From Polynucleobacter sp. Tro8-14-1 (lineage in GTDB: Bacteria; Pseudomonadota; Gammaproteobacteria; Burkholderiales; Burkholderiaceae): DNA of 64,000 nt. Each line of letters opens with the position of its first letter. Position 1 is the first letter of the stretch. The notes beneath the pieces are model-generated. The model saw only the letters and a program-made list of their open reading frames with translations, did no database searches and had not been told where the DNA came from. Positions 1 to 10,808 of this stretch are shown here, in pieces. The stretch spans positions 1 to 64,000 of the forward strand of contig NZ_JACVPX010000005.1 of assembly GCF_018881655.1 (NCBI RefSeq). The letters run 5' to 3'. Both the position numbers and the translations under genes were made by a program.

Positions 1-14
1 GTTTCAAACTCATT

Positions 15-647
15 ATGTCTACATTTAAAAATCTCATAAGTGAATCCGCTTTAATCTCACAAACGACTATCGCGCATTATGATCAACATGCTGTTACTTA
101 TTATGAGGGCACAAAAGATCATGATGTCAGTCAAAATATTGATGCCCTATTAAGCACAATCAAGACTGAGCCACCGTTTCATATTCTGGATTTTGGATGT
201 GGTCCGGGAAGAGATCTACAAACCTTTGCTAAGCTTGGTCATGTTGCTGTTGGGCTTGAAGGTAGCAAAGAAGCGGCTCAAATAGCTAAAACGAAAAGCG
301 GTTGCGAAATCCTAGTTCAGAATTTTTTTAACTTATCTTTGCCAGATAACACGTTTGACGGTATTTTTGCGAACGCTTCACTATTTCATATTCCCAATAA
401 GCTATTACCCAAAGTACTAAGTAATTTATGGGCATGCTTAAAACCCAACGGTATTCTTTTTAGCTCAAACCCTCGGGGTAATAACGAAGAAGTTTGGTAC
501 GGAGACCGATTTGGCTCATATCATGATTTAGAGAGCTGGAGATCTTTTATGACCGATGCAAAATTTACTGAAATTGAACATTACTATAGGCCAAGTGGAC
601 TACCAATTGAACAACAGCCATGGCTGGCAAGCGTTTGGAAAAAGTAG
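15..647 (+). CDS. class I SAM-dependent methyltransferase
   Basis: ORF with SAM-binding motif ILDFGCGPGRDL and methyltransferase-type fold pattern. Confidence 0.85.
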   Translation: MSTFKNLISESALISQTTIAHYDQHAVTYYEGTKDHDVSQNIDALLSTIKTEPPFHILDFGCGPGRDLQTFAKLGHVAVGLEGSKEAAQIAKTKSGCEILVQNFFNLSLPDNTFDGIFANASLFHIPNKLLPKVLSNLWACLKPNGILFSSNPRGNNEEVWYGDRFGSYHDLESWRSFMTDAKFTEIEHYYRPSGLPIEQQPWLASVWKK

Positions 648-689
648 TTCTTCAATCATTCTTAGTGGCCTTAGCTAAGAATATTTAAT

Positions 690-1109
690 CTAAGGCTTAA
701 GTTGGGCTCTTATTTCACCAGGTTTATTGGTGGCACTATGAACATTGAGATAAAGATTGCCGCTCTTCAAGCTTTGGAGCTGGGCATCCGTTAACTTGGC
801 ACCAGCGGGGGCAGTCCAAACATTATCTGAAGTCTTGGTAAATGGAACAATAACTGGGCCATTTTGGCCCATCGGCGCCTCATGAATATGTGCCATGGTT
901 GCCTCGATACCTGTCGTTGTGATGGTTCCCGACACCGCTCCGTCTGGAGCAACCATGATTGCGCCTACCCCAGAAGCTGAGGTCATTACTGGTGGCACCT
1001 CTTGAGAGCCAGTAAGAGTTACTTTCATTGACTGTGCAAAAGCACCTAATGAAGCGACGCCAACACACAATCCCAAAACAACTTTTGCTAAAACATGAGT
1101 TATCTTCAT
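690..1109 (-). CDS. CHRD domain-containing secreted protein
   Basis: Signal peptide (LGLCVGVASLGAFAQ) and CHRD-like motifs: VTLTGSQEVPPV, AHIHEAPMGQNGPVIV, NLYLNVHSATNKPGEIRAQL. Confidence 0.88.
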   Translation of the reverse strand: MKITHVLAKVVLGLCVGVASLGAFAQSMKVTLTGSQEVPPVMTSASGVGAIMVAPDGAVSGTITTTGIEATMAHIHEAPMGQNGPVIVPFTKTSDNVWTAPAGAKLTDAQLQSLKSGNLYLNVHSATNKPGEIRAQLKP

Positions 1110-1240
1110 TTGTATCTCCTATTGGTTTAGTCCTGGGTTTAGACTATCACAACTAGCTTAATGAGATATGTTGGCAGATTAAATTTTTGAGGAAAAGCCT
1201 TAAATTGGACCAATCTGATCTTTAATGACTAAGAGCATCA

Positions 1241-1849
1241 TTACATAACAAGGCCCTGAATGATTTCAGATAGCTCATCAAACGTTTGATATCCATTTAC
1301 AGGCATGAAACTACGAGGAGAAAAATTCTTTTCACCGATAAGCATTGCTGGAAGCCCTTGAAACCCGTAAGTCTTGAACTCTTGCTCATCGGCCATAACG
1401 TGTTTGGTCAATTCGCCGTTATCAACAGCTTGTTTTAGGCGTTCAATATCAATACCTTCTTGAGAAGCAATCTGCATTACCGCCGCTTCGCTACCAATAT
1501 CCATTCCTTGCAAAAAGAATGCGTCAAATAAGGCTCTAGCAAGTTTTAATGATTTCCCTTGAGAATTAGCAAAGTAAACACTCTCTTGCGCAAGCCATGT
1601 ATAGGTTAGAAATTTTGGCGTTAAAAGCTTAAGATTCTCTTGCATAACAATGGGCTCAGACTTAGCGGCCTCAAGATTATCCATGTAGGATTGTGAGGGA
1701 GATATATTGCCCTCAACTGGGGTTAATTCAAATGCTCTCCATACTATCTCTAGTCTGTCTTGATACTTTGTTTCGAGCTTTTCAAGAACGATAGTCTGAA
1801 AGTAACTATATGGACATTCAAAGTCAGCCCAGATCTGAATCTGAATCAT
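1241..1849 (-). CDS. DsbA family (FrnE-like) oxidoreductase
   Basis: IWADFECPYSYFQ N-terminus and GLPAMLIGEK thioredoxin-fold cis-Pro region. Confidence 0.82.
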   Translation of the reverse strand: MIQIQIWADFECPYSYFQTIVLEKLETKYQDRLEIVWRAFELTPVEGNISPSQSYMDNLEAAKSEPIVMQENLKLLTPKFLTYTWLAQESVYFANSQGKSLKLARALFDAFFLQGMDIGSEAAVMQIASQEGIDIERLKQAVDNGELTKHVMADEQEFKTYGFQGLPAMLIGEKNFSPRSFMPVNGYQTFDELSEIIQGLVM

Positions 1850-1891
1850 TACTTCTCCACCTCGTTTAATTAACTACCAACATCATATTCT

Positions 1892-2446
1892 TTAAATCTG
1901 CCTGGCTAATAAAACAGCTACTGCCGATCCACTCCTTACTAAAGCACACCAAAGCCTTAGAGTTAAGGGCCTAGGGCTCACAACTTTTGATCTTGCTTCA
2001 TTTTTATGATTTATTTCGTCGGCTTGGCAACGCATGAGGAGCTTAAGCAAATCATCATGACTACCATTTTTTTGCAGATATTCAATCTGTTGCTGGTAAT
2101 GTTGCTCTACAAATGTCTCAACAGCATCAATCGTTGCATAAACTGCTTTTCTTCCAAATAGCGCTGGTATTGCCCCAGTTAACCATCCCGCAATGCGCCA
2201 AGGAACAAGCAAACGACTTCGATGCTTGGCCTCGAAAATAGACTCTATTAACTGTAAATGCTCAGCCTCAGTGGCTCCATGATGCTTGGCAAAACTGATG
2301 AGCTTCTGATCTTTACGTAATTTTGCAATGACAATAATACCTTTGTAGATATAGATAGCACCCGTTTCGCCGGCATGATCTGAGCGTAACTCACGCTCTA
2401 AATAGACGGAATAAGAAGCATGACTACGCTCGATTACACCGCTCAT
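1892..2446 (-). CDS. Coq7/demethoxyubiquinone hydroxylase family diiron protein (second paralogue in window)
   Basis: Diiron ligand pattern: DHAGETGA, TEAEHLQ, VETFVEQHY, ADEINHKNEA. Confidence 0.8.
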   Translation of the reverse strand: MSGVIERSHASYSVYLERELRSDHAGETGAIYIYKGIIVIAKLRKDQKLISFAKHHGATEAEHLQLIESIFEAKHRSRLLVPWRIAGWLTGAIPALFGRKAVYATIDAVETFVEQHYQQQIEYLQKNGSHDDLLKLLMRCQADEINHKNEARSKVVSPRPLTLRLWCALVRSGSAVAVLLARQI

Positions 2447-2518
2447 CTGAGATAAGCCCGGATATAACTTATAACTTCATCATAAAACTGTCGCATCTTT
2501 TTCATCAATCTCATTTTA

Positions 2519-3082
2519 TTATTGAAGGTAGTTACTAAAATCAAATATAGAGTTGGGCCCGAGCTTTTCTGCTTTTTGTAATTCGGCTTTTGTAATCAGA
2601 ACGCTTTGAGAATCCCATTTACCCTTTTTGGAGATTTCTTGTAACTGATACTTTTGCGAGTCCCAGGCTGGAATGATCTCAATTTGAAAGGACCTTGTTC
2701 TCGCATCTTTCGAAGATGATGCTACTGCAATCTTAGATAGACAATCACGCATATAGGATTCAAAAGATTCTACGATCTCTTTAGCAAAGTCTGCGATAAC
2801 TACTTTTCTGGATCTAAAGTGATTGACTGCTAAAAACACATCTTTCATCGTCATACTTTGTGGGTCTTTAGCTAAGTAGTATCCGCCCCTTCGTCCTTTG
2901 GCAGCTCGTATTAAATAAGCAGACTTGAGCGCGGAGAGCACTATTTCCATACGACTTAAAGAAAGGTGCTGACGTTTAGCGATGTCAATTGCTCTAACCG
3001 GAACGCCAAATCGTGAATAGGCGGTGATATCAATCAAGGTATTGATAGTTTGTTCAAGCGACCTATTGATGTACTTCAACAT
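2519..3082 (-). CDS. Rrf2 family transcriptional regulator
   Basis: Rrf2-type winged helix: VPVRAIDIAKRQHLSLSRMEIVLSALKSAYLIRAAKGRRGGYYLAKDP. Confidence 0.85.
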   Translation of the reverse strand: MLKYINRSLEQTINTLIDITAYSRFGVPVRAIDIAKRQHLSLSRMEIVLSALKSAYLIRAAKGRRGGYYLAKDPQSMTMKDVFLAVNHFRSRKVVIADFAKEIVESFESYMRDCLSKIAVASSSKDARTRSFQIEIIPAWDSQKYQLQEISKKGKWDSQSVLITKAELQKAEKLGPNSIFDFSNYLQ

Positions 3083-3127
3083 GACACTTTCCTTTTATTA
3101 ACGACACGGTAGAAATGACTTAAAAAG

Positions 3128-3147
3128 AAGTCGCCCGAGGGCGACTT
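3128..3147 (-). terminator. Hairpin with U-run on minus strand (attenuator/terminator-like) upstream of Rrf2 gene
   Basis: Perfect 9-bp inverted repeat AAGTCGCCC-GA-GGGCGACTT; minus strand continues CTTTTTA. Confidence 0.55.
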
Positions 3148-3311
3148 AAGGACCTTAAATACGGGTCGGGAGACAATTTAATTCTGAACCTATTAGGGTT
3201 ATTACGTATAAAACTACTAATAGAGGGGTTTTTGCTGCCCTGCAATCTAGGCACTTAAAGCGCATACTAATTAAGTAGTAACCCTAGTATTTTTAACCAA
3301 AGGAGCTTTAA

Positions 3312-3413
3312 ATGAGACAGTTCAAACAGTTTCTGAGTAATTTGGTCATAGTTTTAGTCGAGGCTCGCAAGGCTTACTTGAGGCGCCATATGAATCATCT
3401 TTTAGGCTCATGA
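3312..3413 (+). CDS. 33-aa small ORF MRQFKQFLSNLVIVLVEARKAYLRRHMNHLLGS
   Basis: Not in ORF track; AAAGGAG Shine-Dalgarno 6 nt upstream of ATG; amphipathic/basic peptide. Confidence 0.45.
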   Translation: MRQFKQFLSNLVIVLVEARKAYLRRHMNHLLGS

Positions 3414-3435
3414 GTTACGTTTAACCAAAAATCAC

Positions 3436-3621
3436 ATGAAATTAACCGTTTTTCGTTACAAAGTCTGGGATCCCCAGGATGACAATGAAGCACAGATGCC
3501 TCCTTACTACGCTATCCGGGAATATATCGAAAACTTAGAAGGAGCTTCTGTGATCGAAGATGACTTTTTGGAGGTTGATGAGTCCGACCTTGATGTTTAT
3601 GGAAGAATTTCCACCATATAA
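3436..3621 (+). CDS. small conserved hypothetical protein (61 aa)
   Basis: Compact acidic ORF MKLTVFRYKVWDPQDDNEAQMPPYYAIREYIENL...; fits between neighbouring ORFs. Confidence 0.55.
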   Translation: MKLTVFRYKVWDPQDDNEAQMPPYYAIREYIENLEGASVIEDDFLEVDESDLDVYGRISTI

Positions 3622-3626
3622 ATTGC

Positions 3627-3971
3627 ATGAAAAGGAAACGCACAATGCCAATATTTCGAACCGCTTTATCGTTAGCTTTTTTGTTAGTAGTAGCCAACCC
3701 ATCTTTTGCTCAGGCAATTTCTAAGGATTATCAAAAAAATTGCATAAGTGAACAAGTGGCTGAGCATAAAGATCTTAAGGGTAAGACCCTTACTGAAGAA
3801 GACTTCACGGCTTACTGTGGATGTCAAGCTGAATTCGTCGCTAAAAATGCCTCTAATCGACAAGTGAATGAATTAATAATGAATCCAAAAATAAAACCTG
3901 AGTGGCTCAAGGCCATGGAGTTAAAGGGAATGAAGGCTTGCGTTATGGTTGACCCCAAGATGAATACGTAA
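3627..3971 (+). CDS. secreted hypothetical protein with conserved cysteines
   Basis: Signal peptide FRTALSLAFLLVVANPSFAQA followed by C...CGC...C pattern. Confidence 0.65.
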   Translation: MKRKRTMPIFRTALSLAFLLVVANPSFAQAISKDYQKNCISEQVAEHKDLKGKTLTEEDFTAYCGCQAEFVAKNASNRQVNELIMNPKIKPEWLKAMELKGMKACVMVDPKMNT

Positions 3972-4030
3972 TCCTCAATACTGACTTAGTAAGCGTCGCT
4001 TAAATCGATGCTTGACCAGCACAAAAAAAG

Positions 4031-4245
4031 CTTCGCGAGTTGTCCCATTAAAGTACGCCTCTTGATAGGATTACTGCTCTATCCTAAATAACCATAATTG
4101 AACCTACCCCAGAGGTGGAGCTAATTACTGCCAGAACTTCGAGAGAACTATCGAGGGTTCGCCTCATTGGCTGCGTTGAAACGGCTAATAAGGGTATACC
4201 AATACAAAACCATAATGCAGTCGTATTTAAAGCGTATCTTCTCAA
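4031..4245 (-). pseudogene. Degenerate CHRD-domain gene relic
   Basis: Minus-strand translation LAVSTQPMRRTLDSSLEVLAVISSTSGVGSIMV aligns ungapped to LGAFAQSMKVTLTGSQEVPPVMTSASGVGAIMV of the 690-1109 gene (17/33 identical by hand), then in-frame TAG and an apparent deletion. Confidence 0.75.
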
Positions 4246-4455
4246 TGATTGGCCACATCCTCAGTTCCATAAACATTTTTTACATTGTCATTCAAAGTCT
4301 TAAGGGGTGCGTTGAGATCGGAATGATTAGTATGATCATATCCAAATCTTGTTATCGATATTATCGATCATTAAATTCAATTTAATTCATTGGACCGATA
4401 TCTTAATATCCCCCAGAATCACTTCATCGCCATTAAAAAACTAAAGGAGCGAGAA

Positions 4456-4548
4456 ATGAAGAATCATCACCACTTATCTGAAGGCCTGTACTTTCTCAAT
4501 CACGAGTTTGAAAAGGATTTAGCTACCTTCTTTTGCACCAGAAAATAG
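4456..4548 (+). CDS. 30-aa small ORF MKNHHHLSEGLYFLNHEFEKDLATFFCTRK
   Basis: Not in ORF track; CTAAAGGAGCGAGAAATG has a strong SD. Confidence 0.4.
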   Translation: MKNHHHLSEGLYFLNHEFEKDLATFFCTRK

Positions 4549-4557
4549 GAGAAAGAT

Positions 4558-4671
4558 ATGTCAACTTTTATCCAATCAAAGAATCCAATGAAGTTATACG
4601 CAGGAGTTTGCATCAATGCTCTTGGAGCTGGATTAACTGTCTTTGATATCGCCAAGCACTTTATTCGTTAA
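4558..4671 (+). CDS. 37-aa small ORF MSTFIQSKNPMKLYAGVCINALGAGLTVFDIAKHFIR
   Basis: Not in ORF track; AGGAGAAAGATATG SD; single hydrophobic segment; just upstream of ohr. Confidence 0.45.
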   Translation: MSTFIQSKNPMKLYAGVCINALGAGLTVFDIAKHFIR

Positions 4672-4698
4672 AAATATTTAATTAGAGAGAAAAGTATC

Positions 4699-5124
4699 AT
4701 GAATACGCTGGATAAAATAATGTACACAGCCCACACCCACACTACTGGTGGCCGAGATGGCAAGGCAGTTAGCGATGATGGCCTGCTGAATGTAACTCTA
4801 TCAGCACCTAAAGCTATGGGTGGCGCTGGTACAGCCACTAATCCAGAGCAATTATTTGCAGCTGGTTACTCAGCTTGTTTTATGGGAGCGCTTAAGCACG
4901 TAGCAGGATTGAAAAAAGTAAAGGTGCCTGATGATGCTTCAATTGACGCCAGTGTTGATATCGGTCCAATCCCACAAGGATTTGGTATCGCTGTTAAGTT
5001 GGCCATAGCCTTACCAGGCTTAGAAAAAAAGGCTGCTAAAGACTTAGTCGATGCGGCTCATCAGGTTTGCCCCTATTCCAACGCTACTCGTGGCAATATT
5101 GCAGTTGATATTTCCGTCATATAA
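4699..5124 (+). CDS. ohr: organic hydroperoxide resistance protein (Ohr/OsmC family)
   Basis: Ohr signatures FAAGYSACFMGAL and HQVCPYSNATRGN (both catalytic Cys). Confidence 0.93.
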   Translation: MNTLDKIMYTAHTHTTGGRDGKAVSDDGLLNVTLSAPKAMGGAGTATNPEQLFAAGYSACFMGALKHVAGLKKVKVPDDASIDASVDIGPIPQGFGIAVKLAIALPGLEKKAAKDLVDAAHQVCPYSNATRGNIAVDISVI

Positions 5125-5151
5125 ATCATTATTTCCAATGAAGGGGAACTT

Positions 5152-5643
5152 ATGAGTAACAAATTAACTAAAACCATAATAGATATTGGCATTAGTGAAA
5201 AAGATCGCAAGGCCATTGCTAAAGGATTATCAGAGCTTTTGGCGGACAGCTACTCTCTCTATTTGATGACTCATAACTTTCATTGGAATGTGAAAGGTCC
5301 AATGTTTAACACCCTTCACACTATGTTTATGACTCAATACACTGAGCAATGGGCAGCGCTTGATTTAATAGCAGAACGAATCAGGGCGCTTGGGGAACCA
5401 GCACCGGGTACTTATAAGGAATTCTCAAAGCTTACCTCCATCAAAGAAGTGGATGGGGTACCTAAAGCAATGGATATGGTCAAGTATCTTGTGAAGGCTC
5501 AAGAGGCTACTGCGAAAACTGCTCGCAAACTTTTCCCTTTAGTAGAAAAAGCGAATGATCAACCTACAGCGGATCTACTAACTCAACGACAAGATATTCA
5601 CGAGAAAACTGCTTGGATGCTAAGAAGTTTATTGGAAGAGTAA
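5152..5643 (+). CDS. dps: Dps family DNA-binding ferritin-like protein
   Basis: [41 protein letters not shown] ferroxidase region. Confidence 0.93.
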
Positions 5644-5741: not shown

Positions 5742-5873
5742 TTACTCCGTCAATACAAAGTCTTCAATCATCTGCTCTACCGACCGCTTCTGGGCCGAAT
5801 TGAGACATTTAAGATTGCAACCTAGTGAGTTATCGGCGTCCAAATGAGCCTTAAAAGCAGCCACAGATCCCAT
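5742..5873 (-). CDS. 43-aa small ORF downstream of the HTH gene
   Basis: Not in ORF track; MGSVAAFKAHLDADNSLGCNLKCLNSAQKRSVEQMIEDFVLTE, between the HTH stop and the shared terminator. Confidence 0.4.
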   Translation of the reverse strand: MGSVAAFKAHLDADNSLGCNLKCLNSAQKRSVEQMIEDFVLTE

Positions 5874-5905
5874 CAGAGAAAAGTCATACTCTCGCCGCCC
5901 CTCAG

Positions 5906-6871
5906 TCAGGGCGCCTCAGTAAGTGCAGCATTTATCTCCTCTGGGCTAATATCCAGTTTTTTAAGAATCAAAGGTAGTACTGCATGGATCGCCCTCATTC
6001 CTTCCAGCAATTCGTTCATATAGATATCTGGATGGCTGCGCTGACTTTGAAATATCCACATATCCCGGTCACTAGTGTCATCCCTAATGTTCTCAGGATT
6101 CTCGGTTATTAGGTCATTCAATTCGGCTTCAAGCGGAAGGCCTAATTCATATGCCTTCGCCTTAACTTCACCAATTAAATTGCTGAAATCACTCATCGTG
6201 ATGAACTGAAACTTTCCAAATAAAGGCGCGATTTCTTTATTCACATTGGCCTTTGCTGTAGCAAGCTCAAGCTTACGATGCAAGATCTCTTGCTTGGCTT
6301 CCAGATTTTGAAAGTTTGGATGATTTAATCCCAGGTTGGATACATACATTCCAATGAAATGATCAATGCAGGCGTAATTATCAAAAATTGATCTGATTAA
6401 ATGAATGAGGGGCTGCTCTTCAAATGCATCTATCGTCGCATCAACCTTATCATTGCCCTCGCCATAGTGGTCATACATTTCCTCATATTCCCATTGCAAA
6501 ATGAACTCTTGCGGAAAAGGTTTTGGGATGTTGACCCCAATGAGGGCTAAGATTCTCATTAGCTCGGCACAAACCGCTTCATCCTCAATCCCATAATCTA
6601 GTTCGGCCTCATTGTTATACATTTGGTAAGTGATCAATTTGGCCCATTTTTTAGCGTCGTCCACCGATCCGCAAGAGATTACAAAATCGGGATCAAGGTC
6701 TCCAGCCTGGGTTATATCGCGCAGTTTCTTTTCCATAACTGCCGACATTGACTCCCCATTCTTCCACTTGCTGATCTGGACTTTTGAGACACCCATCTCT
6801 ATAGCTAATTCTGTTTGATTGCATTTCAATATCTCTAAGGCAATTTGCACCAGCGTTTTTCCGTTTGACAT
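5906..6871 (-). CDS. XRE-type helix-turn-helix regulator with large unknown C-terminal domain
   Basis: N-terminal HTH: TELAIEMGVSKVQISKWKNGESMSAVMEKKL; remaining ~250 aa unrecognised. Confidence 0.75.
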   Translation of the reverse strand: MSNGKTLVQIALEILKCNQTELAIEMGVSKVQISKWKNGESMSAVMEKKLRDITQAGDLDPDFVISCGSVDDAKKWAKLITYQMYNNEAELDYGIEDEAVCAELMRILALIGVNIPKPFPQEFILQWEYEEMYDHYGEGNDKVDATIDAFEEQPLIHLIRSIFDNYACIDHFIGMYVSNLGLNHPNFQNLEAKQEILHRKLELATAKANVNKEIAPLFGKFQFITMSDFSNLIGEVKAKAYELGLPLEAELNDLITENPENIRDDTSDRDMWIFQSQRSHPDIYMNELLEGMRAIHAVLPLILKKLDISPEEINAALTEAP

Positions 6872-6886
6872 ATGGACCTTTTAAAA

Positions 6887-6916
6887 GTTACTTAATTATT
6901 ATTAATGTTAAGTAAC
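6887..6916. promoter_or_regulatory. Inverted repeat, probable operator of HTH gene
   Basis: GTTACTTAA-N12-TTAAGTAAC, perfect 9-bp arms, begins 16 bp upstream of HTH ATG. Confidence 0.6.
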
Positions 6917-7019
6917 AATTTACACCTTTATTTGAAGTCATAAAAATTAGTTTTTGAATGCCTGCTATGTATAAGGTCCAAAGTTTTACGTAATTAGTGG
7001 GGCTATACAGGGGTTTTGA

Positions 7020-7074
7020 TTGACAACGCCTATATTTCCAAGTAATTTATTAAAATGCAAAATAACTTGGAAAT
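7020..7074 (+). promoter_or_regulatory. Near-consensus promoter plus inverted repeat over the start of the NTase gene
   Basis: TTGACA(7020-7025)-N17-TAATTT(7043-7048), ATG at 7055; ATTTCCAAGT(7034-7043)/ACTTGGAAAT(7065-7074) perfect 10-bp arms. Confidence 0.6.
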
Positions 7075-8095
7075 AATAGATCTTCCCGAAGATTCCATCC
7101 GGCAATATATTGACGCTAAAAGCGCATTTACCGCTTTAGAGCAGGCTAAATTACGGTCGGCAGAGTTTCGTGGAGGAATGGTTTGGAAAACCGTTAAAGG
7201 TAAGGAATATCTGGTGCGCACGACTACTAGGGGCGACCAAACCGGCCTTGGTGCTAAAAGCGCTGAAACAGAAGCCATCTACAACAAATTTACTGCTGGT
7301 AAAGCGCGTGCGGCAGAACTCTCGTCAGGGTTAAAGCAAGCCGCTGTAAAGCATCAGCGACTAAATCGTGCGCTAAGGGTGGGCAGAACACCCAACATCA
7401 TTATTGATATCCTGGTTGGGTTGAGCGATGCTGGCATGTCTGACAAGTTCACCATTATTGGCACTAACGCGCTATATGCCTATGAGACTGCCGCTGGGGT
7501 CCGCCTTAATGAGGCTCATCTGGCAACTCGGGATGTTGACTTGCTATGGGATAACCGTAAAAAATTAAGCTTGTTTACTCAAGAAAATACCCTTGCTGGC
7601 GGTATGCTGGGCTTTCTTCAGAGCATTGATTCAACCTTCACGCTGCGTGATGACCAGCTGTATACCGCTGTTAATAAAGATGGCTATGAGGTTGATATTT
7701 TGCGCCGTATGGGTCAGGGCAGTGATGCTGAGCCTGGTCGCTTTAGTACTCTGGTTGATGATTTTTGGGTAGTAAAAGCGCGTAATGCAGATTGGTTACT
7801 CAGTGCACCCAAATTTAGTGAGGTTATCGTTGGCGTTAATGGCAAGATGGCCCGTATGAATACAGTTGATCCACGTGCTTTTGCTTTATTCAAGCTGTGG
7901 ATGGCTGATCAACCCGATAGAGATCCGGGCAAGCGCATCCGTGATGCTAGTCAGGCCCGTATTGTGGTTGATTTGATTAACAGTCATTTGCCGCAATATA
8001 GCTTTGAGGATATCAAGGTGTTTCCATCAGCCGTTGCCGATAAGATTGCGGTTGATGATACGGGTAACCGGAGAATTGTTAAGCCCCTGAAGTGA
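7055..8095 (+). CDS. nucleotidyltransferase-fold protein (GSU2403/NTP_transf_8-like)
   Basis: FTIIGTNALYAYETAAGVRLNEAHLATRDVDLLWDNR (G..AL...(X)6-D-V-D NTase pattern) and DGYEVDILRRM third-acid region. Confidence 0.72.
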   Translation: MQNNLEIIDLPEDSIRQYIDAKSAFTALEQAKLRSAEFRGGMVWKTVKGKEYLVRTTTRGDQTGLGAKSAETEAIYNKFTAGKARAAELSSGLKQAAVKHQRLNRALRVGRTPNIIIDILVGLSDAGMSDKFTIIGTNALYAYETAAGVRLNEAHLATRDVDLLWDNRKKLSLFTQENTLAGGMLGFLQSIDSTFTLRDDQLYTAVNKDGYEVDILRRMGQGSDAEPGRFSTLVDDFWVVKARNADWLLSAPKFSEVIVGVNGKMARMNTVDPRAFALFKLWMADQPDRDPGKRIRDASQARIVVDLINSHLPQYSFEDIKVFPSAVADKIAVDDTGNRRIVKPLK

Positions 8096-8267
8096 AGTTG
8101 AACGTTTAATTTGAATTAAGCAACGCATTAAAATTGAGGCATACTAATTCTGTATGGCGTAAGTGCTCAACAAGACCCCTCATTGAAAATTCGTCAACAA
8201 AGTGTCAACCTAAGCTGATAAAAACGTGATCCAATGTTGTTTAATATCAACCAAGCCCAATGACTGT

Positions 8268-8348
8268 ATAGGGGAGGCCTTACTGGCAAAGCTGTTAAAC
8301 TGCTTTGTAATCAGTAGGTGGTCTGTTCGAGTCGGACAAGGGGCACCA
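8268..8348 (+). pseudogene. degenerate tRNA-Thr(TGT)-like remnant (3' half intact)
   Basis: TTTGTAATCAGTAGGTGGTCTGTTCGAGTCGGACAAGGGGCACCA: intact T-arm (GTCTG-TTCGAGT-CGGAC), anticodon loop TTTGTAA, encoded CCA; acceptor 5' strand does not pair and ~5 extra nt after the D-arm-like part. Confidence 0.7.
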
Positions 8349-8356
8349 AGTATTTG

Positions 8357-8390
8357 AAAGCTTCTAAGTTAATCGCTTAGAAGCTTTTTT
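8357..8390 (+). terminator. Rho-independent terminator downstream of tRNA remnant
   Basis: AAAGCTTCTAAG-TTAATCG-CTTAGAAGCTTTTTT. Confidence 0.85.
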
Positions 8391-8413: not shown

Positions 8414-9466
8414 TCAACTTCTAATGATGTCTTGCATAGGCCTCTCAAAAAATCGATAGGTAACGTAAGACAGCAAAAGAATGCCTAGGAGGAATGCTCC
8501 AAAGAAGAGTGAGTCATAGATGGGGATTGCTATGCCGAAGAACTCGAAAATGAGCACCATCAGTAGTTGCAATGGAAAGTGCAGTAAATAGCTCGAATAG
8601 GTCATATTGCCGAATGCTGCAATCATTCCATGATATTTTTTAGGGGCGGAAATATTGATTGTCCCCGCATAAATTAAAAAGGGGACATAGCAAAACAACA
8701 GAATTTTTGAAAAGCTTGTATTGCTAAGGTGGAATATAAAAGGCGCGCATGTAGTCACTACAAACGCAATAAGCAGGGATATCTTTCGATAAGTTGTTCT
8801 CTCAAGGCGGCTATAAAGCGCCGCGGTCATGCCGCCCACATAGAAATAAAGAAGGCAATCAACAATAAAGGACTCGGTCAGGTTGTAATGCTTAATGAAG
8901 GTACATATTAATAGGACTGCAATACTTATAAAAAGACTTGCCCCAAAATAACGAGCGACTAAGAAGAAAAATAAGTAGATTAATACCTCAACTGATATGG
9001 ACCATATGGGTCCATTAAAGCTGAAGCCTTGACCACCCCAATTGCTTGCTAAAAAAAGTTGCGGAATAAAATGACGCCAATCAGTATTGCCATAGACAAA
9101 ACTAGATTCGTGGGATTGTAGGTAGAGGATTTGTAATCCCGCAACCAGTAAGAGGGTTAGTAGATGTAGAGGATAAAGTCGCGAGAAGCGAAGAACAAAA
9201 AAATGCTTTGCATTAAGTGCTTTCTGCTCAATCACTTTGGCGTATTTCCAAAAAAATATAAATCCACTGATGCCCCAAAATATTTGTACGCCAAGGCCAC
9301 CATTGAGATAAACCGGTTTTAGCCAGTCGTAAAAAGGTAGCTGCATTAATGCAAAATTATTTGGCGCTTGGCCTACAAAGGAAAAATGTTGGAAGTGAAA
9401 AATTAAAATAGCTAATGCCGAGAAAAACCTGATGATTTCAAGGCCGTATAGTTTGTTGTTAGGCAA
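8414..9466 (-). CDS. acyltransferase 3 family (OafA/YrhL-like) membrane protein
   Basis: LEIIRFFSALAILIFHFQHF, RFSRLYPLHLLTLL, ~10 TM segments. Confidence 0.9.
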   Translation of the reverse strand: MPNNKLYGLEIIRFFSALAILIFHFQHFSFVGQAPNNFALMQLPFYDWLKPVYLNGGLGVQIFWGISGFIFFWKYAKVIEQKALNAKHFFVLRFSRLYPLHLLTLLLVAGLQILYLQSHESSFVYGNTDWRHFIPQLFLASNWGGQGFSFNGPIWSISVEVLIYLFFFLVARYFGASLFISIAVLLICTFIKHYNLTESFIVDCLLYFYVGGMTAALYSRLERTTYRKISLLIAFVVTTCAPFIFHLSNTSFSKILLFCYVPFLIYAGTINISAPKKYHGMIAAFGNMTYSSYLLHFPLQLLMVLIFEFFGIAIPIYDSLFFGAFLLGILLLSYVTYRFFERPMQDIIRS

Positions 9467-9479
9467 AATGCATCCTTAA

Positions 9480-10808
9480 TTATTGGCGTAGATCTATTTT
9501 TCTTGTCTCTGGTAAATAGAGAAGGGCCACAATAGCAGCGCTTGCTAAAAATACAGTGGGATACCACAGGCCGGCACTATCACTTTGCCAGCGTTGATTT
9601 AACCAGGTCACGATTAAGGGAAGTAGGCCACCAATCCATCCAGCAGCAAGATTATGGGGAAGGGTTGCTGCACTGTTTCTGGTTTTTGCTGGAAAGAGTT
9701 CGGTCAGCATGGCGGTCTGAGGACCAACCACTAAAGCAAGTGCTAGAGATAGGCCAATTAGTAGCATTCCAATCAAAATAAGATTTAGAGAAATTGCTGG
9801 GTTGTTGAGATATTCCGTGCCAATGTTCTTGAGCAGATGAAATGCCGGCAGAATAAAAGCAGCACCCATGAAGAGTCCGCAAATGACTACTGGTTTACGA
9901 CCAATTTTGTCCGATAACCATCCGGCAAAAATAGTGAGCGGAAATAACGCTAAGGTCGCATAAATACTGAATTGGTCTACTAACTCGGGCGCTAGCTTCA
10001 CAGAAGTTTTTAGAAAAATCGTTGTATAGACTTGCACGCAAAAGAAAAGCACTGCCCCTCCCGCAGAGATGCAGAAAAACAGCAAAAACATGCGTTTACG
10101 TGTTTGCGGGTCGCGAAAGTTATTGAGTAGTGGGCTTGTAGATTGTTGATGGGATTTGCTCAGTTCTAAAAACACAGGCGTTTCTTCTAAAGCCATGCGC
10201 GCTTTGAACGCTACGAGTAATAGCGCAATTGAAATCCAAAATGGCACACGCCAGCCCCAAGATTGAAATTCTTCTGGTGATAACTGGCTTCTGAGGAATG
10301 CAATTTGCAAGGTGGAAAACAAGATGCCAAGAGGACCCATGAGTTGGAGGAAGCTAGTCTTAAATCCCCTGTACTCATCACCAGCATGTTCGGTGAGGTA
10401 GACAGCACTGCCGCCGATTTCACCGCCAGCAGAGAGTCCTTGAAGTAGGCGCAGAGCAACCAACAGAATGGGTGCCCAAATACCTACTTGGACATAAGTA
10501 GGTAAAAAGCCAACGCTCACAGTTGCTATCCCCATCAATGCAATGGTGATCATGAAAACCGGTTTACGGCCGATCCGATCGCCCATAGAGCCAAATAGGG
10601 CAGCTCCAATGGGTCTTACTACCATTCCAACGCCAAAAGTCGCCAGGCTCGCTAAAAGGGCTGTATTGGGGTCTGTTGAGGGAAAGAAGAGCGGTGCAAA
10701 AACCACTGCCAAGGTTGCAAATGTCAGGAAGTCATACCACTCTAAAAAGGTTCCAAAACAGGCTGCAATAGCAACTTTTCGATAGGAATGGGAATTCGGA
10801 TATGACAT
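9480..10808 (-). CDS. MFS transporter (metabolite:H+ symporter type)
   Basis: GSMGDRIGRKPVFMITI and GWLSDKIGRKPVVICG MFS motifs, ~12 TM. Confidence 0.92.
   Translation of the reverse strand: MSYPNSHSYRKVAIAACFGTFLEWYDFLTFATLAVVFAPLFFPSTDPNTALLASLATFGVGMVVRPIGAALFGSMGDRIGRKPVFMITIALMGIATVSVGFLPTYVQVGIWAPILLVALRLLQGLSAGGEIGGSAVYLTEHAGDEYRGFKTSFLQLMGPLGILFSTLQIAFLRSQLSPEEFQSWGWRVPFWISIALLLVAFKARMALEETPVFLELSKSHQQSTSPLLNNFRDPQTRKRMFLLFFCISAGGAVLFFCVQVYTTIFLKTSVKLAPELVDQFSIYATLALFPLTIFAGWLSDKIGRKPVVICGLFMGAAFILPAFHLLKNIGTEYLNNPAISLNLILIGMLLIGLSLALALVVGPQTAMLTELFPAKTRNSAATLPHNLAAGWIGGLLPLIVTWLNQRWQSDSAGLWYPTVFLASAAIVALLYLPETRKIDLRQ

Follow-up and report, generated by a model that had tools for sequence, protein, structure and literature searches.

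Divergent HTH and PF12281 nucleotidyltransferase genes, each with a candidate operator, at the distal end of a tRNA-Thr genomic island in Polynucleobacter

We analyzed a 64-kb stretch of DNA (the window) on contig C17, one of the 21 contigs of a Polynucleobacter genome whose closest named relatives are Polynucleobacter sp. AP-Latsch-80-C2, UK-Gri1-W3 and P. finlandensis. Two genes stand back to back across an intervening region of 183 bp, one for an XRE-type helix-turn-helix (HTH) protein and one for a nucleotidyltransferase-like protein (NTase) (Table 1). The initial annotation had described both open reading frames and their divergent layout, which the positions and strands bear out, and the NTase-type motifs TRDVDLLW and DGYEVDIL that it named are present in the 346-aa protein. 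It had overlooked the tRNA-Thr 3' fragment behind the NTase gene. An Rfam RNA search of the window gave no match.

Table 1. Features at the locus, in window coordinates (a dot marks a feature without strand).
Feature	Position	Strand	Basis or detail
Distal part of tRNA-Thr island; proximal part on contig C11	1-8297	.	C11/G147 comparison
43-aa ORF, judged not a gene	5742-5873	-	comparison of genomes
Left edge of block common with the other four genomes	5790-5795	.	IS end at same position in two of them
XRE-type HTH protein, 321 aa, conserved uncharacterised C-terminal region	5906-6871	-	R.HPDIYMNELLEGMR.IH.VLP..KKL
Candidate HTH-gene operator, GTTACTTAA-12 nt-TTAAGTAAC	6887-6916	.	arms 6887-6895/6908-6916
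Candidate NTase promoter: TTGACA 7020-7025, 17-nt spacer, weak -10 TAATTT 7043-7048	7020-7048	+	inferred
Candidate NTase-gene operator, inverted repeat around start codon	7033-7075	.	arms 7033-7048/7060-7075
NTase, NTP_transf_8 (PF12281, 'GSU2403 family'), 346 aa, catalytic D160/D162/D214	7055-8095	+	Pfam match, alignment
tRNA-Thr(TGT) 3' fragment, 52 nt, distal attachment-site scar, exact right block edge	8298-8349	+	sequence match
Terminator-like hairpin behind tRNA fragment	8356-8388	+	
MFS transporter	9480-10808	-	directly after intact tRNA-Thr in island-free relatives

The NTase matched PF12281 over residues 117-319 (E 6.4e-53; 180.4 bits against a Pfam gathering cut-off of 26.3), and this was its sole Pfam match at E<=1. 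Residues G136, T137, D160, D162, D214, K280, R289, K293, D297 and Q300 are invariant in 22 homologues. The catalytic acids whose conservation the initial annotation had counted on are among them, and the invariant D297 and Q300 give an RDxxQ motif. Judged by these residues, the NTase looks catalytically competent. The N-terminal region, the catalytic acids, the C-terminal lysine and the RDxxQ motif are common to the window NTase and to plasmid, phage and chromosomal members, and on this comparison the protein is an ordinary PF12281 member. The family is common in Proteobacteria and on plasmids and also occurs in phages; our literature search on PF12281, GSU2403 and DUF3620 found no paper describing a function.

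The AlphaFold models of both proteins are poor, with a mean pLDDT of 50 for the NTase and 38 for the HTH protein. The only confident part of the NTase model is residues ~40-90, in which a long helix comes after a beta-sheet. We regard this modeled N-terminal domain as a candidate DNA-binding part, for which profile (Pfam) and fold searches gave no support. With the NTase as query, a PDB sequence-profile search found nothing, and neither did a fold search at E<=0.001, for which the poor model was the query. Its N-terminal SLG.RSPETE segment is similar by eye to the arm-type DNA-binding domain of integrases; this comparison found no support in Pfam and was set aside as speculation.

The HTH protein matched HTH_3 with an E value of 8e-4 and 19.8 bits, below the Pfam cut-off of 23, and HTH_3 was matched by 9 of the 13 members of its family. 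On these profile matches we assign it to the XRE/Cro-CI HTH regulators. Its C-terminal part of ~250 aa had no Pfam, PHROG, NCBIfam or PDB family match, and PDB sequence profiles covered the HTH segment only. Nevertheless conserved in this part is the motif R.HPDIYMNELL..MR.IH.VLP, which is kept in homologues at 21-29% overall identity. We also considered that the protein might be a phage gene, and rejected this since it has no relatives in phages or viral contigs.

Homologues of the HTH gene adjoin DarTG (L064), ParDE (L065), AbiE (L066), YefM-YoeB (L067) and MqsA-like genes (L049), and no PF12281 gene was found beside them. Genes of SIR2-like (L063), ParD/plasmid-stabilisation (L048) and Hok/Gef (L050) type also lie near members of the family, and some of the HTH-family genes among L063-L067 and L048-L050 are truncated. 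The HTH family is a rare one with a candidate operator, and its members are usually found beside toxin-antitoxin or defence genes.

The initial annotation gave each promoter a perfect inverted repeat. The repeat at the HTH promoter is perfect over 9 bp; the 16-nt arms at the NTase gene are 94% complementary, with the outer 11 bp perfect. Both repeats exceed chance. An exact match to the HTH-family motif TTWASTWAA lies upstream of all five other HTH homologues and of 2 of 205 control genes, a contrast inflated by the derivation of the motif from the same promoters, and the sites are often paired in promoters of the family. Within the window, the paired operator occurs only at the HTH gene's own promoter. 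The HTH protein most likely represses this promoter at the paired TTAAGTAAC operator.

The repeat at the NTase gene covers the putative -10 element and the start codon. The promoter was absent from the listing of our consensus scan and its assignment is putative, the -10 being weak. The repeat exceeds chance in shuffled sequence (p ~0.02), and the same architecture recurs family-wide. For 32 PF12281 clusters (60% identity) and 282 neighboring genes, we compared the best perfect repeats close to the start. The median arm was 9 bp in PF12281 versus 6 bp in the neighbors (Mann-Whitney p 5e-12), and arms of at least 9 bp were present in 62.5% of the clusters versus 9.6% of the neighboring genes; mononucleotide shuffles agree with this enrichment. 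The arm sequences vary by lineage yet stay complementary, as in TTTTACCTG/CAGGTAAAA at L046 and TTTTCCCTG/CAGGGAAAA at L045. These comparisons show a new property of the family, namely that PF12281 genes generally carry a promoter repeat of their own, and they offer a direct handle on whether the enzyme regulates itself. The alternative that the repeat acts as an RNA hairpin instead of a DNA operator is disfavored because the left arm lies between the putative -35 and -10 elements of this weakly assigned promoter.

We then compared the locus among 151 genomes of the genus. A block of 2.56 kb (~5790-8349) is common to five of them, those with the HTH gene, and in all five the right edge of the block is the CCA end of the 52-nt tRNA-Thr fragment. 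The left edge bears on a 43-aa ORF that had been noted between the HTH stop codon and the terminator. This ORF exists, but it is not a conserved gene: the left block edge runs through it, its C-terminus varies among genomes, and against the two more diverged copies the changes are spread over every codon position and affect 10 codons nonsynonymously and 3-5 synonymously. These observations rule it out as a third component. At the left block edge, G147 carries an IS transposase gene of 480 aa (L035:8281-9723), and G148 has this IS end (TTACACAGCCTCG) there as well, close to the end of its contig (left end of L036).

In island-free relatives (e.g., G007 and G012), an intact tRNA-Thr(TGT) is followed directly by the MFS gene. 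The window genome has its intact tRNA-Thr at positions 17111-17186 of contig C11, where the upstream flank shares 94% identity with G007 and the tRNA is immediately followed by a gene for a tyrosine integrase. A single contig of G147 carries tRNA-Thr, the integrase and a stretch homologous to window 2886-4236, which places C11 and the window's left part in the same island, at least 25 kb long. The integrase is present in all five genomes with the two-gene module and in only two others of the 151 (hypergeometric p 3e-8, relatedness ignored); it is partial in G148, and the G094 copy is 77% identical, with no detected tRNA-Thr adjacent. Between the window and G034 or G147, NTase and integrase are 97-99% identical, far above the 74-83% of the flanking MFS gene, indicating that the element moves.

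The locus thus has an integrase beside an intact tRNA, a 3' tRNA duplicate at the other end and an empty site in relatives. In its tyrosine integrase behind the intact tRNA, distal 3' tRNA duplicate and accessory cargo it resembles other tRNA-integrated genomic islands, and no difference from them was found. The HTH and NTase genes form the distal cargo end of this integrase-borne island, which occupies the tRNA-Thr(TGT) gene and spans at least 25 kb, and we have high confidence in the anatomy and mobility of the locus. The hairpin behind the tRNA fragment is probably the original tRNA-Thr terminator. Other cargo includes photolyase, GTP cyclohydrolase I, OsmC and a Dps-like ferritin (L032:1590-14011, window 1-5643), which looks like a set of light/oxidative-stress genes. 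In kind the locus is mostly ordinary, a set of accessory genes where a tRNA island ends. G147 and G148 also have regions on other contigs that match window 1258-3910 at 73-75% identity.

Copies of the NTase gene that lack an HTH gene occur at other sites in G030 and G121. They are 88-90% identical and match the window only over ~7009-8104, that is, promoter and gene; the promoter is the same and the repeat is unchanged. The G121 copy adjoins a tRNA-Leu and integrase fragments. Since the NTase repeat and the HTH operator differ, the HTH-less copies keep the repeat, and the paired HTH operator is found only at the HTH gene, the parsimonious reading gives each of the two genes a switch to itself, and we consider separate regulation of the two genes fairly probable from these promoter comparisons. 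The NTase would be a self-contained cassette of promoter, operator and gene, most likely autorepressed or repressed by another factor at its own repeat, and the HTH protein would be dispensable for the persistence of that repeat. Genome comparisons likewise suggest that the NTase is usually solitary.

Our best explanation overall, which we think somewhat more likely than not, is that the distal cargo of the island consists of two separately self-regulated accessory genes, of which the NTase may be a conflict effector resembling AbiEii/MenT. The "self-regulated accessory module" of the initial annotation survives in being accessory, horizontally moving and marked by signals of self-regulation, but not in the pairing of the two genes as a toxin-antitoxin or defence unit. 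The NTase is most likely a solitary nucleotidyltransferase of polymerase-beta type that would nucleotidylate tRNA or some other target, as AbiEii/MenT toxins do, and it may act on the mobile element's behalf in conflicts with phages or with other elements. We propose the conflict-effector role only tentatively; a nucleotidylating conflict effector seems the likeliest role, with a physiological RNA or metabolite enzyme as a serious rival.

According to this rival, the NTase modifies RNA or a metabolite in a physiological role and happens to travel on mobile elements. Distant chromosomal homologues often adjoin unrelated housekeeping genes, which fits a non-conflict role as well; orphan copies adjoin acyltransferase, ribD, transaldolase and murB genes, and the other cargo of the island is stress-related. 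A patchy distribution within the genus (18 of 151 genomes) speaks against it, as does the occurrence in phages. PF12281 was found in ten viral contigs (L098-L107). In those examined, it stands alone as an antisense gene inside the tail module, with a tape-measure-like gene on one side and a structural gene on the other; this is an unusual setting for a housekeeping enzyme and makes it a candidate prophage cargo gene. We judge the physiological role possible, though on the unlikely side. In the wider sample, PF12281 was matched in 43 of 299 Pseudomonadota genomes, and NTase homologues were found on 60 plasmids. A bolder extension of the conflict-effector reading, which we consider unlikely, is that PF12281 is an unrecognised class of solitary, self-repressed NTase effectors that travel in phages, on plasmids and on genomic islands. 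The enzyme would bind the symmetric repeat over its own promoter, be released or induced during element conflict and nucleotidylate a host or invader target, with no separate antitoxin gene.

We compared the NTase with AbiEii, whose motifs I-IV are hG[G/S], DhD, a lysine helix and +DxxD (PMC3985639). It shares with AbiEii/DUF1814 (PF08843)/MenT proteins a polymerase-beta fold core, DhD, a lysine in a hydrophobic helix and a basic-acidic C-terminal motif. Unlike them, it lacks a PF08843 match, which the true AbiEii in L066 does give. Its motif I is hGT and lies 22 residues from DhD, versus 15 in AbiEii; its motif IV reads RDxxQ versus +DxxD; and it has an extra N-terminal ~110 aa, has no AbiEi-type partner and is solitary elsewhere. 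By its motifs, the NTase is AbiEii-like in layout and falls outside that family.

The initial annotation had taken the two genes for a toxin-antitoxin or defence pair. In such an abortive-infection pair, the NTase would be the toxin and the HTH protein both repressor and antitoxin, like AbiEi/AbiEii but divergent. Adjacency in all five HTH-bearing genus genomes, a two-domain HTH protein, the AbiEii-like motifs of the NTase and the toxin-antitoxin and defence genes beside HTH homologues are in line with this. However, all five pairs lie at the same tRNA-Thr site; the five genomes represent one island type, and adjacency there neither proves nor excludes coupling. Among 299 other Burkholderiales genomes, the HTH gene occurred in 4, the NTase gene in 12 and both in 0, where 0.16 genomes are expected by chance and ~4 for an obligatory pair, so the co-location of homologues elsewhere that the initial annotation expected did not appear. 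The persistence of close NTase copies with the same promoter but no HTH gene, and the restriction of the paired operator to the HTH gene itself, also argue against the pair. Like AbiEi-type antitoxins, the HTH protein combines an N-terminal DNA-binding domain with a larger C-terminal domain, and promoter inverted repeats are present; unlike them, it is XRE-type rather than winged HTH, has no AbiEi Pfam match and is encoded divergently, whereas AbiE systems are bicistronic operons (PMC3985639). The locus also differs from MNT-HEPN, as the neighbor of the NTase is an HTH protein in which no HEPN Pfam match was found. Among known anti-phage systems, no PADLOC model matched the 22 NTases or the HTH protein (best E 0.025 for the latter). 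Neither neighborhood nor promoter evidence supports the toxin-antitoxin reading, and the pair does not appear to be a general toxin-antitoxin unit; we consider this reading distinctly unlikely. Two unrelated cargo genes can mimic a toxin-antitoxin pair when judged from a single genome.

A looser link is regulatory coupling only, in which the HTH protein controls its own and the NTase promoter and does not neutralise the NTase. The common 183-bp divergent region and an AAGTAA in both repeats would suit this, but genomes without the HTH gene keep the NTase repeat unaltered and the operators of the two genes differ in sequence, and we regard such coupling as improbable. That the HTH protein is a maintenance or excision regulator controlling the integrase, as the co-occurrence of integrase and module might suggest, is very improbable, given that no paired HTH operator was found in C11:1-20000, including the integrase promoter, and that the integrase is adjoined by its own 219-aa protein.

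With separate, self-regulated cargo genes as the favored reading, the lasting result is a testable property of the PF12281 family, its own promoter repeat, together with a rare HTH family with a candidate operator. The latter is a second uncharacterised accessory family that tends to adjoin toxin-antitoxin genes.

Several minor observations were made alongside. The window's genome encodes a second, distant PF12281 protein of 367 aa (L145:2319-3422; G000:C17:173196-173825), with a murB-like neighbor and without an HTH partner. A decayed NTase remnant is present at G128:C426:15051-15140; the tRNA-Thr integrase is found in G128 too. The gap that separates the tRNA-Thr fragment from the MFS gene holds an acyltransferase gene (8414-9466) in the window; this slot is empty in G007 and G012 and holds other genes in the module genomes at L036 and L038, so a second site of variation lies beyond the tRNA scar. 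Finally, G040, G043 and G049 each have two tRNA-Thr 3' matches, suggesting further elements at tRNA-Thr in these genomes.
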